Of a stretch of DNA of 33,899 nt, positions 14,530 through 20,568 are shown one piece after another. A program made the position numbers and the translations under genes. Source of the stretch: Candidatus Methanofilum arcanum. Lineage in GTDB: Archaea; Halobacteriota; Methanomicrobia; Methanomicrobiales; Methanospirillaceae. The stretch covers positions 1-33,899 of the forward strand of contig JAITWW010000007.1 of assembly GCA_031285085.1 (NCBI GenBank), given 5' to 3'. Each line of letters starts with the position of its first letter. Positions within the stretch are counted from its first letter, which is position 1. A model generated the notes under the pieces. That model was not told the origin of the DNA. It searched no databases and saw only the letters and a program-made list of their open reading frames with translations.

Positions 14530-14604
14530 GGGGTAATAGGGTAGCCTGGTCCATCCTAGAGCGTTTGGGACGCTTTGACTGCAGTTCGAATCTGCGTTAC
14601 CCCA
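14530..14604 (+). tRNA. tRNA-Pro (anticodon UGG)
   Basis: A full cloverleaf can be drawn. The acceptor is GGGGTAA with TTACCCC plus discriminator A; the D stem is GGGT/ATCC; the anticodon stem is GAGCG/CGCTT around the loop TTTGGGA (anticodon TGG at positions 34-36); the T stem is TGCAG/CTGCG around TTCGAAT. No intron is present and the 3' CCA is not encoded. The nth start codon follows 10 nt later, so tRNA processing may create the 5' end of the nth mRNA. Confidence 0.95.
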
Positions 14605-14614
14605 TTCTTTTTCT

Positions 14615-15253
14615 ATGAATTCGTCATCTGCTGAAGAGATTTTTCGTATTCTTCAAAGTACATATCCACTTGCTGAGATGAGAGATGAGTTTTTGCACTT
14701 TCAGACTCCGTTTCAAAGTCTCATCGCAACGATTCTTTCTGCTCAGACTACTGATATTTCAGTGAATGCGGTAACTCCTGAGCTCTTTTCTCGCTATCCT
14801 ATTGCCACCGATCTTGCTCATGCAAAGCAGGAGGATGTTGAGGCGATTATTCGAAGAACTGGCTTTTACAGGAGCAAAGCAAAGAATATTATTGCGACTG
14901 CGCAGATGCTTACTCTGGAGTTTTCAGGAGAGGTCCCAGCAGACATGGAACAGCTTCAGCGTCTTCCTGGTGTTGGGAGAAAGACTGCAAATATCGTTAT
15001 GAGTCAGGCATTTTCACAAAATGAGGGCATTGCCGTAGATACTCACGTGAAGCGCATATCCATGCGACTTGGTTTGACGAGTCATTCGAATCCAGATTCC
15101 ATTGAGCAGGATCTATGCACTGTATTCCGTCGTGAATGGTGGGAGGAGATTAATGCTTTGTTTATTCTGCATGGTCGACGAGTCTGCAATGCACAGCGCC
15201 CGAAGTGTGAGATCTGTGTTTTATCTTCATATTGTGTGTATATGAGTAGGTAA
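14615..15253 (+). CDS. nth: Endonuclease III (DNA glycosylase/AP lyase)
   Basis: A 212-aa bifunctional base-excision enzyme that removes oxidised pyrimidines and cuts at the abasic site. It has the helix-hairpin-helix LPGVGRKTAN with catalytic K123 and the catalytic D142 in AVDTHVKR. The C-terminal [4Fe-4S] cluster loop has the exact C-x6-C-x2-C-x5-C spacing (CNAQRPKCEICVLSSYC). Length is typical. It lies immediately behind tRNA-Pro and probably shares its promoter. Confidence 0.95.
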   Translation: MNSSSAEEIFRILQSTYPLAEMRDEFLHFQTPFQSLIATILSAQTTDISVNAVTPELFSRYPIATDLAHAKQEDVEAIIRRTGFYRSKAKNIIATAQMLTLEFSGEVPADMEQLQRLPGVGRKTANIVMSQAFSQNEGIAVDTHVKRISMRLGLTSHSNPDSIEQDLCTVFRREWWEEINALFILHGRRVCNAQRPKCEICVLSSYCVYMSR

Positions 15254-16403: not shown

Positions 16404-17573
16404 ATGGTGAAAGTACGTGTACATATTGAACCAACCGTCATAAATTGGGTTATTGGAGCTATTGCACACGATAAAGTACCTTCTGATGTTGTTGCTACTC
16501 TCGAAAAATGGAGAGAGGGTACTGTTCAGCCAACTTTTAGCCAAGTCGAGGATCTAAGCAATAGAATTCACATCCCCTTTGGGTACTTTTTTTTGAATTC
16601 CCCTCCAAAAGAAGAACTACCAATCTTAGAATACCGCACAGTTGACAGCAGCAAAGCAGAGATCCCCAGCCGCGAGCTTGTTGACACAATACACTATGCC
16701 GAAAATATACAACATTGGATGCGAAATCATGTAATCAGCAGTGGAATGCCTAAACTCCATTTTGTTGGCACCGGCAAAAACATACATTCTACGATCGAGT
16801 TTGCTGATAGGTTTCGAAAAGATATAGATTTAAAAACCGATTGGTACTCTGATTGTGCAAATGCAGCAAATTGTTTTACGTATCTAAGAAAGAGATTAGG
16901 AGACATTGGCATTCTCATTCTGATGAATGGCATTGTTGGTAACAACACTCATCGAAAATTGGATATTGATGAGTTTAGAGCTTTTACTCTTATTGATGAT
17001 TATGCTCCCCTCATCTTTTTGAACGGAAATGATTCTGATGGGGCTCGGTTGTTTTCCCTTGTCCACGAAGCAGTACACATTTGGTTGGGTGTTGCTAGTT
17101 TTTACCATGAAAGAGATGACAACGCTACGAGCACAAGCGATGTCGAACAATTCTGTAATGCGGTTACTGCTGAGATATTGGTTCCAAATCACATATTTAG
17201 AGATAAATGGAATAAATGTGGTCAAGAACTAGCTAAAGTGGATATAGTAGAAAAATTGGCAATTTTTTTTAGATGCAGTGGTACTGTTATTGCCAGACGT
17301 GCAAAAGACAATAACTATATAAACGCTGTTCAATATCAAGAGATCGCAGCTCTAGCCATAAATAGCTACAATAAACAAAAGGAGAAGCAGAAAGGCGGTG
17401 GAGGGGACTTTTATCGCACATCTATTTCTCGTCTAGACCCTCGATTTTTATTTGCATTAGACAACAGCATCAAGGAAGGAAAGACACAGTACACTGATGC
17501 TTATAGACTCACAAATCTTAATAGAACTTCTTTTGACAAGATATTAGAGCGAGTGAAAGGGATTAGTCAATGA
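16404..17573 (+). CDS. ImmA/IrrE-type zinc metallopeptidase with N-terminal HTH-like region (probable antitoxin)
   Basis: A 389-aa protein of the COG2856 type. Residues about 10-70 form an Xre-like helical region (TLEKWREGTVQPTFSQVEDL) and a linker that is typical of the family. The peptidase motif HEAVH has H221, E222 and H225, with the distal E/N/A helix EQFCNAVTAEILVP. GGAGGT lies 6 nt before the ATG. The stop overlaps the next start by 4 nt (ATGA), so the metallopeptidase and the PIN protein are made together. Pairing of COG2856 proteins with PIN-like toxins is a known toxin-antitoxin arrangement; the antitoxin label here is inferred from that. Confidence 0.82.
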   Translation: MVKVRVHIEPTVINWVIGAIAHDKVPSDVVATLEKWREGTVQPTFSQVEDLSNRIHIPFGYFFLNSPPKEELPILEYRTVDSSKAEIPSRELVDTIHYAENIQHWMRNHVISSGMPKLHFVGTGKNIHSTIEFADRFRKDIDLKTDWYSDCANAANCFTYLRKRLGDIGILILMNGIVGNNTHRKLDIDEFRAFTLIDDYAPLIFLNGNDSDGARLFSLVHEAVHIWLGVASFYHERDDNATSTSDVEQFCNAVTAEILVPNHIFRDKWNKCGQELAKVDIVEKLAIFFRCSGTVIARRAKDNNYINAVQYQEIAALAINSYNKQKEKQKGGGGDFYRTSISRLDPRFLFALDNSIKEGKTQYTDAYRLTNLNRTSFDKILERVKGISQ

Positions 17574-18109
17574 GTTTTGAGGGAAATAGGTTTCTCATTG
17601 ATACGAACTGTTTCATTGATCCATTCAAAAAATATTACTTTTTTGATTTGGTTCCCACATTTTGGCAAAGGATGGAGGAGGCAATTATCTTTGGCCACGT
17701 GATATTGTTAGATCTCGTAAAAAACGAAATTTTAAAGGGGCAGAAGGAAAAAGAAAAGAAAGATGAACTTACCATGTGGGTGGAGAGATTTGGCAATGAT
17801 CTCATTTTGAGCCGCAAAAATCCAGAAATAATGGATATGTACTTGAAGGTACTGGATTATATACAGAACTGCGATCTATACAAATCAAGTGCTCTCACTG
17901 AGTGGTCAAAGAAAGATGTTGCAGATGGATGGCTTATTGCTGCTGCATGTGTTGGTGAATATACAATCACTACGTTCGAAGAACGAAATAATGGCTTAAA
18001 TCCTCAGTATCCTTCTCCAGAGGCGAAGATTCCAAATATATGTGAACATTTCTCAGTGGAATGTGTAGATCTATTTGCTATGATGCGAAGACTACATTTC
18101 AGATTATAG
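17570..18109 (+). CDS. DUF4411 PIN-domain protein (probable RNase toxin)
   Basis: A 179-aa PIN-fold protein. The acidic metal-binding residues are visible: D in FLIDTNCFIDP near residue 11, E in LVKNEILKG near 50, D in KKDVADGWLIAAA near 118, and the acidic TTFEERN segment. The family features FDLVPTFW and KIPNICEHFSVECVDLF match DUF4411. PIN toxins cleave RNA, often tRNA or rRNA. It overlaps the ImmA/IrrE gene by ATGA. Its codon use is more A/T-rich than the ribosomal genes, in keeping with a mobile accessory module. Confidence 0.82.
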   Translation: MSFEGNRFLIDTNCFIDPFKKYYFFDLVPTFWQRMEEAIIFGHVILLDLVKNEILKGQKEKEKKDELTMWVERFGNDLILSRKNPEIMDMYLKVLDYIQNCDLYKSSALTEWSKKDVADGWLIAAACVGEYTITTFEERNNGLNPQYPSPEAKIPNICEHFSVECVDLFAMMRRLHFRL

Positions 18110-18438: not shown

Positions 18439-18446
18439 TTTATAAC
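18439..18446 (+). promoter_or_regulatory. TATA box upstream of the ribosomal operon / structured RNA
   Basis: TTTATAAC is the best TATA element in the gap before rpl3. It predicts transcription from about 18466, which is the first base of the first hairpin of the structured segment. It therefore serves either a leader of about 330 nt for rpl3 or a separate small RNA. Confidence 0.55.
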
Positions 18447-18465
18447 TACCTTCTACGAATAATAA

Positions 18466-18718
18466 AGAGCCATGATCGAGCCGGAGCGGCTCTGATCTGC
18501 TAGTGAACGAAAAGACGTTCTTGGAGATGAATTCTCTCTGTGAGCAGAACTCATCGGGCTGAAAAAGTGGGATGTGAACGGGAAAGGGCCTCAATTCATG
18601 CACAAAGCTGCTGAAATGCCCGTCGTCAGGAGAGACGAAAACCCAAATGAAATCACAATCTCTTATGCGAGACCAGGGTAACCAGCGATATTACTGAAAT
18701 AATCAGCATAGCGCCTGG
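18466..18718 (+). ncRNA. Structured RNA segment before rpl3 (leader or independent RNA)
   Basis: Complementary segments follow one another with little sequence between them. These are AGAGCC/GGCTCT (18466/18488, competing with an inner GAGCC at 18478); a three-way junction closed by TCTGCT/AGCAGA (18496/18543) holding GAACG-AAAAGA-CGTTC and GGAGA/TCTCT; a long arm ACGGG/CCCGT (18578/18619) with an inner TTCA..TGAA stem; CGTC-AGGAGA-GACG (18624-18637); and CCAGG/CCTGG (18673/18714). No convincing plus-strand ORF covers it. Universal RNase P or SRP RNA motifs are absent. It could be an autoregulatory leader of the uL3/uL4 genes or a free RNA. Pairings were found by eye and are unproven. Confidence 0.4.
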
Positions 18719-18796
18719 CATCTAAATCTCTTTACCGTCAATTGCGCGAATCTCCTCGCCTTGACATCGTACAGAAACAGAAGGAAGATATAACAC

Positions 18797-19810
18797 ATGC
18801 CGAGAATACACAGACCACGCATGGGGTCACTGGCATACAGTCCACGCAAAAGGTCTAAAAGCCAGGTCCCAAAGTATCATGCATGGCCCTCATATGAAGG
18901 AGAACCTTCAATACAAGGCTTTGCAGGATACAAAGTTGGTATGACCCACCTCATCATGACAGATGATCATGCCAAGAGCCCAAACGAAGGCAAGGACGTC
19001 ATGGTCCCTGTCACCGTTATTGAGGTTCCAAGTATGAAAGTGGCAGCTGTTCGGGTATACCGGGCAGACACCTATGGGCGTCACCCCCTTACCGACATCT
19101 GGACTAACACCCTCGACTCTGAAATTTCACGTGCTTTAATCCCTCCCAAGAAGGATCAACGCACAGAAAGCGAAAAAACAGCACGTGAAGCATTAGAACT
19201 GGGAACCATCACAGACATCTACGTGCTTGCATACACCCGCCCCATTGTCCTCTCTGGAGTTCCTAAAAAAACCCCGGATCTCATGGAGATGCGTATCGCC
19301 GGTGGAAGCATCGAAGATCGATTCAACTATGCACTCTCTCTCCTTGGCACTGACGTCTCAGTACAAGACCTCTTCCAAATCGGTCAGTACACGGACATCA
19401 CCGCAGTTACCAAAGGAAAAGGTACACAAGGCCCCGTAAAACGCTGGGGAGTACATCTTCGAAAGCGCAAACACTCACGTGGTGGAAAAGAACGACACAT
19501 CGGAACACTTGGACCATGGGCTCCTCACCACGTTCGTTGGCAGGTTCCGATGATGGGTCAGCTTGGATATCAACAGCGCACCGAATTCAACAAACGCCTT
19601 CTCAAGATTGGCGACAATGGTGCTGAGATCACTCCAAAAGGTGGATTCCTCCATTATGGAGATGTAAGAAACCCATACATCCTCATCAAAGGCTCTATTC
19701 CAGGCCCTGCCAAGCGACTCGTTCGAATACGCCATGCAATGCGTATTGGAGATCATACGGTTCGTGAACCGGTAATCAGCTACATAAGCCAGGAAAGCAA
19801 GCAGGGATGA
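18797..19810 (+). CDS. rpl3: Ribosomal protein uL3
   Basis: A 337-aa archaeal-length uL3, an early-assembling 50S protein whose extension reaches the peptidyl-transferase centre. Recognised by [47 protein letters not shown] and the [11 protein letters not shown] end. GAAGGAAG lies about 11 nt before the ATG. It is the first gene of the S10-type cluster, behind a 687-nt gap. Codons are strongly C-ending (ATC, CTC, AAC), as expected for high expression. Confidence 0.97.
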
Positions 19811-19815
19811 TCTGA

Positions 19816-20568
19816 ATGAAAGCACAAGTATTATCACTGAGTGGGCAGATCATTCGAGAAATTGATCTTCCATCACAATTTGACACTGCATTCCGCCCAG
19901 ACCTCATTAAAAAAGCAGTCATCGCTCTTCAGAGCCTTCGCTACCAACCACATGGAGCAAACCCATTTGCAGGAATTACTGCATCAGCAGTAGGGTGGGG
20001 AAGTGGAAGAGGTGCTTCACATGTCCCTCGTCTCAAAAACAGCTCTCGTGCTGCAAAAGTCCCTCAGGCAAAAGGAGGCCGTGCTGCTCACCCTCCAAAA
20101 GTTGCGAAGATACTCATTCGCTCCATCAACAAAAAGGAAAAGCGAAAAGCACTCAACTCAGCCATCGCTGCAACTGCAAATGAAGAGATCGTCCGTTCCC
20201 GTGGCCACCAATTCATCGGAACAGTACCATTCATCCTCTCAAATGAGTTTGAAAACCTCAACCAGACTCGTGAAGTCGTAGCCTGCCTCAAAGCAATTGG
20301 AGTCTATGCTGACATCGAAAGATCTGCACGCAGCCACAAAGTCAAACCAGGCCGTGGAAAAATGCGTGGTCGACGATACAAACAGCGAAAAAGCCTCCTT
20401 ATTGTTACAGGATCAGATCCCCTTCGAGCGGCACGAAACCTTGCAGGTGTAGATGTCTGCTCAATTGCGAGCCTCAATGTCGAATACCTCGCACCAGGGA
20501 CACATGCCTCACGCCTCACGATCTGGACCGAAAATGCCATCACAAAACTCGCGGAGCGTGATCTGTAA
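19816..20568 (+). CDS. rpl4: Ribosomal protein uL4 (L1e)
   Basis: A 250-aa archaeal uL4 whose long loop lines the exit tunnel. Signatures are GRGASHVPRLKNSSRAAKVP (tunnel loop) and GRGKMRGRRYKQRKS. In bacteria L4 represses its own operon through the S10 leader, which makes the structured segment before rpl3 interesting, although no archaeal equivalent can be claimed from this sequence. It starts 5 nt after uL3 and its stop overlaps the uL23 start (TAATG). Confidence 0.97.
   Translation: MKAQVLSLSGQIIREIDLPSQFDTAFRPDLIKKAVIALQSLRYQPHGANPFAGITASAVGWGSGRGASHVPRLKNSSRAAKVPQAKGGRAAHPPKVAKILIRSINKKEKRKALNSAIAATANEEIVRSRGHQFIGTVPFILSNEFENLNQTREVVACLKAIGVYADIERSARSHKVKPGRGKMRGRRYKQRKSLLIVTGSDPLRAARNLAGVDVCSIASLNVEYLAPGTHASRLTIWTENAITKLAERDL

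Follow-up and report, generated by a model that had tools for sequence, protein, structure and literature searches.

The segment directly upstream of rpl3 in Candidatus Methanofilum arcanum is probably transcribed as the leader at the 5′ end of the rpl3-rpl4-rpl23... mRNA. It carries a three-way-junction RNA, predicted to act in cis, that is homologous to RF03135 and probably lay ancestrally inside the reading frame of a SPOUT methyltransferase gene (PF02598), of which the protein has been lost and the RNA kept. The leader lies in a 33,899-nt stretch of DNA (contig JAITWW010000007.1, forward strand), referred to here as the window. By sequence comparison, its element is a diverged form of RF03135 (“L4-Archaeoglobi”), itself a published candidate ribosomal protein leader (r-leader). 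The original prediction had placed a densely structured, untranslated RNA at 18466-18718, and proposed either an autoregulatory leader before uL3/uL4 or an independent small RNA. The leader part of that reading is well supported by a location upstream of rpl3 in every genome of the order examined, a TATA box at a fixed spacing in most of them, a conserved structure, the RF03135 homology, and natural experiments in which gene and RNA have been separated; there is no support for the stems it singled out, for its switch, or for its “ribosome site”. We take the order to be Methanomicrobiales and the phylum to be Halobacteriota.

On the same strand, no recognisable gene lies between the end of the upstream gene at 18109 and the start of rpl3 at 18797, in agreement with the description of the segment as untranslated. 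Downstream, rpl3 is followed by rpl4 and rpl23, as identified by protein profiles. The extent given for the element should be widened to about 18465-18796, and the features of the locus are as follows.

18439..18445, + strand: TATA box TTTATAA of the leader promoter (similarity in the congener; spacing in relatives)
18465..18562, + strand: 5′ domain, with a transcript start inferred from the TATA spacing, the pairing AGCC 18468-18471/GGCU 18557-18560, the hairpin GAGCC/GGCTC 18478-18492, and further genus-specific hairpins (minimum-free-energy fold; double changes in congener G001)
18542..18673, + strand: conserved core, a relative of RF03135, matched by covariance model R1 (32.2 bits, E=6.6e-4)
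18569..18577, + strand: 5′ strand of P1, GGGAUGUGA, family consensus GGAUCUGA (pairs with 18653-18662)
18579..18644, + strand: P2, GGG 18580-18582/CCC 18642-18644, around P3 and P4 (constrained fold)
18586..18621, + strand: P3, GGGC 18586-18589/GCCC 18618-18621, with an asymmetric internal loop and an inner stem UUCA.../...UGAA (constrained fold)
18624..18637, + strand: P4, CGUC-AGGAGA-GACG, the sequence-variable hairpin of the family (constrained fold)
18653..18662, + strand: 3′ strand of P1, UCAC-A-AUCUC with a one-base bulge, consensus UCA-G-GAUCU (anchored alignment, fold, and R1)
18663..18673, + strand: conserved single-stranded tail UUAUGCGAGAC, UnUUCGCGAGAC in the family (read as S-R-D where copies within the order are coding)
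18674..18796, + strand: remainder of the leader up to the rpl3 start, with a Shine-Dalgarno-like AAGGAAGAT (similar in the congener)
18797..19810, + strand: rpl3 (uL3), first gene of the operon (PF00297, E=4.6e-89)
19816..20568, + strand: rpl4 (uL4; PF00573, E=1.4e-36)

Directly 5′ of the leader are Peptidase_M78 (ImmA/IrrE-like) and DUF4411 genes (16404-18109, + strand) that overlap by 4 bases in a toxin-antitoxin-like arrangement; in the congener, the sequence just 5′ of the leader is unrelated to this region. Further upstream, a tRNA-Pro(TGG) gene (14530-14604, + strand) directly precedes an endonuclease III-like gene (14615-15253). At the other end of the leader, AGGATTGATnnAA before the rpl3 start is unusually uniform in most members of the order (L003-L066), seemingly beyond an ordinary Shine-Dalgarno site.

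Folding strength alone does not single out this segment. The letters quoted in the original prediction are all in place (TATA at 18439, GAGCC at 18467 and 18478, GGCTC at 18488, TCTGCT at 18496, AGCAGA at 18543, and the loop AGGAGA at 18628-18633). However, dense structure did not prove to be a signal: the minimum free energy of 18466-18718 is ordinary (z=-1.2; 23 of 200 shuffles fold equally well) and the opposite strand folds better (z=-3.4), so the stems by themselves prove nothing. The three-way junction said to be closed by TCTGCT/AGCAGA is absent from the minimum-free-energy fold and falls within the genus-specific 5′ domain; it is unchanged in the one congener, G001, and thus gains no support from covariation. 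In the same fold, AGCC at 18468 pairs with the conserved GGGCTGA motif at 18556, and both GAAGCC and GGGCTGA of the 5′ domain recur in many relatives. For the two pairings supposed to compete for GGCTC, G001 favors one: GAGCC/GGCTC (18478/18488) has become TAGCT/AGCTA, the pairing being kept by two double changes, and the alternative at 18467 is unsupported. Lastly, AGGAGA, likened to a ribosome site, forms the loop of P4, the variable hairpin, and is not shared by relatives beyond the genus. The structure that exceeds chance is a different junction from the one first named, formed by P1-P4 at 18569-18662.

A DNA-level search of 61 genomes matched only the congener G001 (83% identity over query positions 1-364 of 371) and was dropped as a route to distant homologues. 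The similarity to G001 starts at about the TATA box, with unrelated sequence upstream, and includes a stretch of ~75 nt that is nearly invariant. We therefore gathered the regions upstream of rpl3 by means of the rpl3 protein from 58 genomes of the order, and found the core, located by the anchors GGATCTGA...TCAGGATCT (a few of them corrected by hand), before rpl3 in 58 of the 58 loci examined; in the window it reads GGGAUGUGA...UCAC-A-AUCUC. A TATA-like box is present in 46 of 56 non-coding relatives, and in 43 of these it lies 26-29 nt from a conserved GAAGCC/GAACC motif. Since this spacing is fixed (43/46), promoter and RNA appear to form one unit. A promoter of its own at fixed spacing, together with a compact folded core, might also be expected of an independent small RNA that acts in trans and is encoded before rpl3 by chance, but the element stands beside rpl3 in all 58 genomes, other lineages have it inside the reading frame that is paired with rpl3 on its 5′ side, and it is missing where that host gene does not adjoin rpl3 (see below). 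We consider an independent small RNA unlikely, and favor a leader of the rpl3 operon.

The structure of the core was assessed by constrained folding, in which P1 alone was enforced and the interior was shuffled with dinucleotides kept. All 56 non-coding cores form a three-way junction, vs. 12.4 +/- 3.0 expected from the shuffles, and so do all 22 coding cores, vs. 4.9 expected; the non-coding set is the fairer test because the Rfam model chose most of the coding set. The common layout consists of P1 with its one-base bulge, P2, the hairpin P3 with an asymmetric internal loop, and the variable hairpin P4. The folding energy of the window core is only slightly better than that of its own shuffles (z=-0.9), and the structural case rests on the whole set. 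P1 shows a compensatory change from CUGA/UCAG in the family to GUGA/UCAC in the window, and P2 is paired in all relatives despite differing sequence. Mapped on the L3 tree, the pairs of P2, the inner part of P3, and P4 are of many types with many two-sided changes (about 80 per helix in P2 and in P4 by parsimony); as these pairs come from the folds, the shuffle test serves as the control for such counts. A plain alignment in fixed register gave a covariation score of 0.239, vs. 0.158 when shuffled and at most 0.157 when slid. MAFFT with RNAalifold on the raw core alignment recovered P3 only, owing to the varying sequence and length of P2 and P4, and was replaced by the anchored constrained folds with shuffles and by a covariance model. 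This model (R1), built from 26 non-coding sequences with the genus of the window left out, has a single match in the whole genome of the window, namely the core listed above, and, although trained on non-coding relatives alone, it recovers the coding-gene copies as well.

In G065, a member of family f11, in which the methyltransferase gene was not found beside rpl3, GAATCTGAC...ATCAGAATCTTTTAGAG lies 119 nt before rpl3 (L119) and is possibly a reduced P1 remnant without P3 and P4.

No Rfam family matches the window at its cut-off, and RF03135 (cut-off 34.5 bits) does not match it even at E<=10. RF03135 does score above cut-off in the rpl3 leaders of relatives, reaching 58 bits at the same locus. 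Among 295 genomes of the phylum it has matches in 167, one in each, with Haloferax volcanii as the positive control for both the RF03135 and the PF02598 searches. The window and RF03135 share an outer stem (CUGA/UCAG in the family), an inner stem, a GGG../..CCC hairpin with an asymmetric internal loop, and a variable hairpin; the three-way junction of RF03135 is found in the window by both the constrained fold and the R1 alignment, and the two also agree in their location upstream of rpl3, rpl4, and rpl23. The window copy differs in that it scores below the cut-off, is non-coding, follows a TATA box, and is extended by an extra 5′ domain and by conserved flanks. Other RNA classes were rejected: the best sub-threshold match was the C/D-box sRNA sR7 (14.5 bits, E=0.78, vs. 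a cut-off of 37 bits), two eukaryotic lncRNA matches were likewise sub-threshold, and the RNase P RNA and SRP RNA of this genome are on other contigs (C127 and C92). In its original description, RF03135 is an archaeal r-leader candidate from Archaeoglobi only, is rated borderline, and has L4 assigned as its ligand by analogy (Eckert and Weinberg, 2020, PMC7247131); the main text of that paper does not mention the methyltransferase. The family is catalogued in Rfam 14 (PMC7779021). Compared with the published family as described there, in Archaeoglobi alone, the element found here is phylum-wide and is located inside a methyltransferase coding sequence in most lineages.

The host gene belongs to PF02598, the family of archaeal MTH1 (1k3r) and human C9orf114/SPOUT1 (4rg1, 8qsu). 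Outside the order, the element is inside the PF02598 reading frame in 20 of 20 loci checked, with the stop codon of the gene shortly before rpl3, and nine further loci have the same PF02598-rpl3 gene pair. Thus, the gene hosts the element in most of the phylum, whereas PF02598 was not found in the window's own genome (85% complete). In the coding copies the conserved letters are read as codons (GTC GGA TCT GAC ... GTC AGG ATC TNT TCG), and silent positions within them are constrained. The same-codon fraction in 30 Halobacteria-type genes is 0.80 inside the element vs. 0.685 outside (p=0.0016), and in 11 genes of family f9, presumably Archaeoglobi-like, it is 0.62 vs. 0.46 (p=0.002), the 5′ boundary of the element in the f9 comparison being set too far 3′. 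NCT (in NCT-GAN) is kept where the residue varies among Pro, Ser, and Ala, and AGG, TCT-TCG, and AAT are invariant in all 30 Halobacteria-type genes. Because the letters, and not the residues alone, are conserved, the coding copies appear to be under constraint at the RNA level.

In L067-L096 and related loci, silent-site constraint reaches ~18 nt upstream of P1 (GGA-ATC-GTG-ACC-SAG-GTC), and the RNA of the coding lineages is therefore probably larger than the Rfam model.

Within the order, PF02598 is present in two of 61 genomes and absent from 49 of 51 near-complete ones, although single absences may be gaps as some genomes are drafts. The gene survives in G043 and G052, two genomes from different families, and in both the element is in frame directly before rpl3; the remaining order genomes, about 50, keep the RNA without the gene. 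Remnants of the gene outside the core are recognisable in the non-coding leaders as GAGAAGGAGTTGTG...CACAACGGGCTGACA (codons R-E-G-V-V...H-N-G-L-T) with a common AATAnTTAGGAAnCCG 5′ end. These remnants are shared, and show the non-coding leaders of many genera to be descendants of the gene that have lost most of its 5′ coding part. Compared with the coding gene, the 5′ part GAGAAGGAGTTGTG...CACAACGGGCTGACA is clearly similar in many genera, and the 3′ parts of the leaders are mostly at shuffle level, except a CCGGTGCACRCCGG stretch; in the window's own genus the GAGAAGGAGTTGTG...CACAACGGGCTGACA remnant is not significant.

Gene remnants such as GAGAAGGAGTTGTG (R-E-G-V-V) would also be left if RF03135 and its conservation were a by-product of coding conservation, the non-coding copies being decaying, functionless pseudogene remains. 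Yet compensatory change maintains the structure in non-coding copies that have drifted in sequence and length, the coding copies show constraint at their silent sites, and most of the 5′ coding part of the gene is gone while core and promoter remain, making functionless decay a very improbable account. It is likely that a regulatory RNA arose inside the methyltransferase coding sequence, with selection at the RNA level acting through silent codon positions, and outlived the protein several times, leaving a gene-fossil leader that still serves the ribosomal operon. This origin in a methyltransferase gene was not part of the original prediction. A literature search on C9orf114/SPOUT1 in archaea and on RNA retention after gene loss returned nothing relevant.

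A separate loss is seen in G068, a complete genome of another family (genome and family both presumably Methanocella-like). It has no PF02598, and the element is intact 515 nt before rpl3 (L132), in a leader where the remnant codons E-G-I-V-T-R-V-G-A-D are followed by a stop; other genera of its family have an intact PF02598 gene. By parsimony on family membership, the gene was lost at least three times within the order and once more in the G068 lineage. The former number follows from the loss in the other members of the G043 and G052 families and from four further families without the gene, and, because the branches of the single-gene tree are short, family membership gives it as a minimum. 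A later regain by G043 and G052 would be a possible but less simple explanation, as the element in these two has order-specific letters in common with the non-coding copies. The converse case is provided by five genomes (G082, G131, G160, G184, and G191) in which PF02598 is present with no rpl3 within about 300 nt downstream: these have no RF03135 match, no R1 match, and a protein without the V-G-x-D stretch. As the RNA is kept after loss of the gene and absent where the gene lies away from rpl3, it appears to be tied to the rpl3 operon rather than to the enzyme. Families f8 (presumably Methanosarcinaceae-like), f10, and f12 have neither gene nor element before rpl3, suggesting that the element is dispensable over long time scales.

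The same genomes bear on whether the RNA could be a site at which the SPOUT methyltransferase binds and regulates its own mRNA. Across most of the phylum, that gene does contain the element, and the protein is RNA-modifying by family (PF02598). However, G068 and about 50 genomes of the order retain the RNA while having no PF02598 gene at all, and genes unlinked to rpl3 lack it, so that autoregulation by the enzyme seems hardly tenable. Retention after loss of the enzyme, here and in many species, is a strong sign that the RNA has a job of its own for the ribosomal genes.

Most likely, the element acts in cis as a leader through which the rpl3-rpl4 operon regulates itself. We propose that the PF02598 gene directly before rpl3 was the ancestral home of the element in the phylum. 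The protein was lost in the order of the window and independently in the G068 lineage, the RNA staying before rpl3 as a non-coding leader that, in the order, sits behind a TATA box. A ribosomal protein of the operon, most likely uL4, otherwise uL3, may bind the junction when it exceeds rRNA, and thereby lower expression of the operon via translation, transcript stability, or elongation. Here uL4 is a candidate ligand by analogy with bacteria, where the L4/S10-operon leader likewise precedes an operon encoding L3 and L4; the proposed logic, surplus r-protein binding its own mRNA, would also be the same. In contrast to this likeness of setting, the window matches no bacterial leader in Rfam. Across relatives, accessibility of the Shine-Dalgarno site is 0.38 vs. 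0.42 in shuffles (p=0.15), not significantly lower, so simple masking of this site is unsupported. A search for mimicry of 23S rRNA gave local alignments at shuffle level and no P3-like motif, and the candidate ligand therefore gains no support from rRNA mimicry. Both results are compatible with regulation, and neither excludes it.

Lying where a long operon begins, and with no Shine-Dalgarno masking detected, the RNA could also serve the processing or stability of the rpl3 operon mRNA as a structural element with no r-protein feedback. We regard this as rather unlikely, since the conserved unpaired flanks (GGGCUGACA and UUCGCGAGAC) suggest a specific partner, and the setting parallels that of other r-leaders (PMC7247131). 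Autoregulation by a protein of the operon remains our preferred reading.

The window element thus belongs with a known r-leader candidate, as a diverged relative that does not code for protein; its setting is new, in that the RNA would have originated within a methyltransferase gene and outlived it. A borderline candidate known from a single class thereby becomes phylum-wide and gains strong support from comparative data, in a field where, to our knowledge, little has been tested: the control of archaeal ribosomal operons through leader RNAs. Because the RNA overlaps a reading frame, gene-based annotation hides it in most genomes. The natural experiments, with protein lost and RNA kept, or gene moved and RNA absent, separate the role of the RNA from that of the protein, and provide a clear case of an RNA structure that overlaps a reading frame and survives the loss of that frame. 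Haloferax volcanii, where both RF03135 and PF02598 match, allows direct testing.
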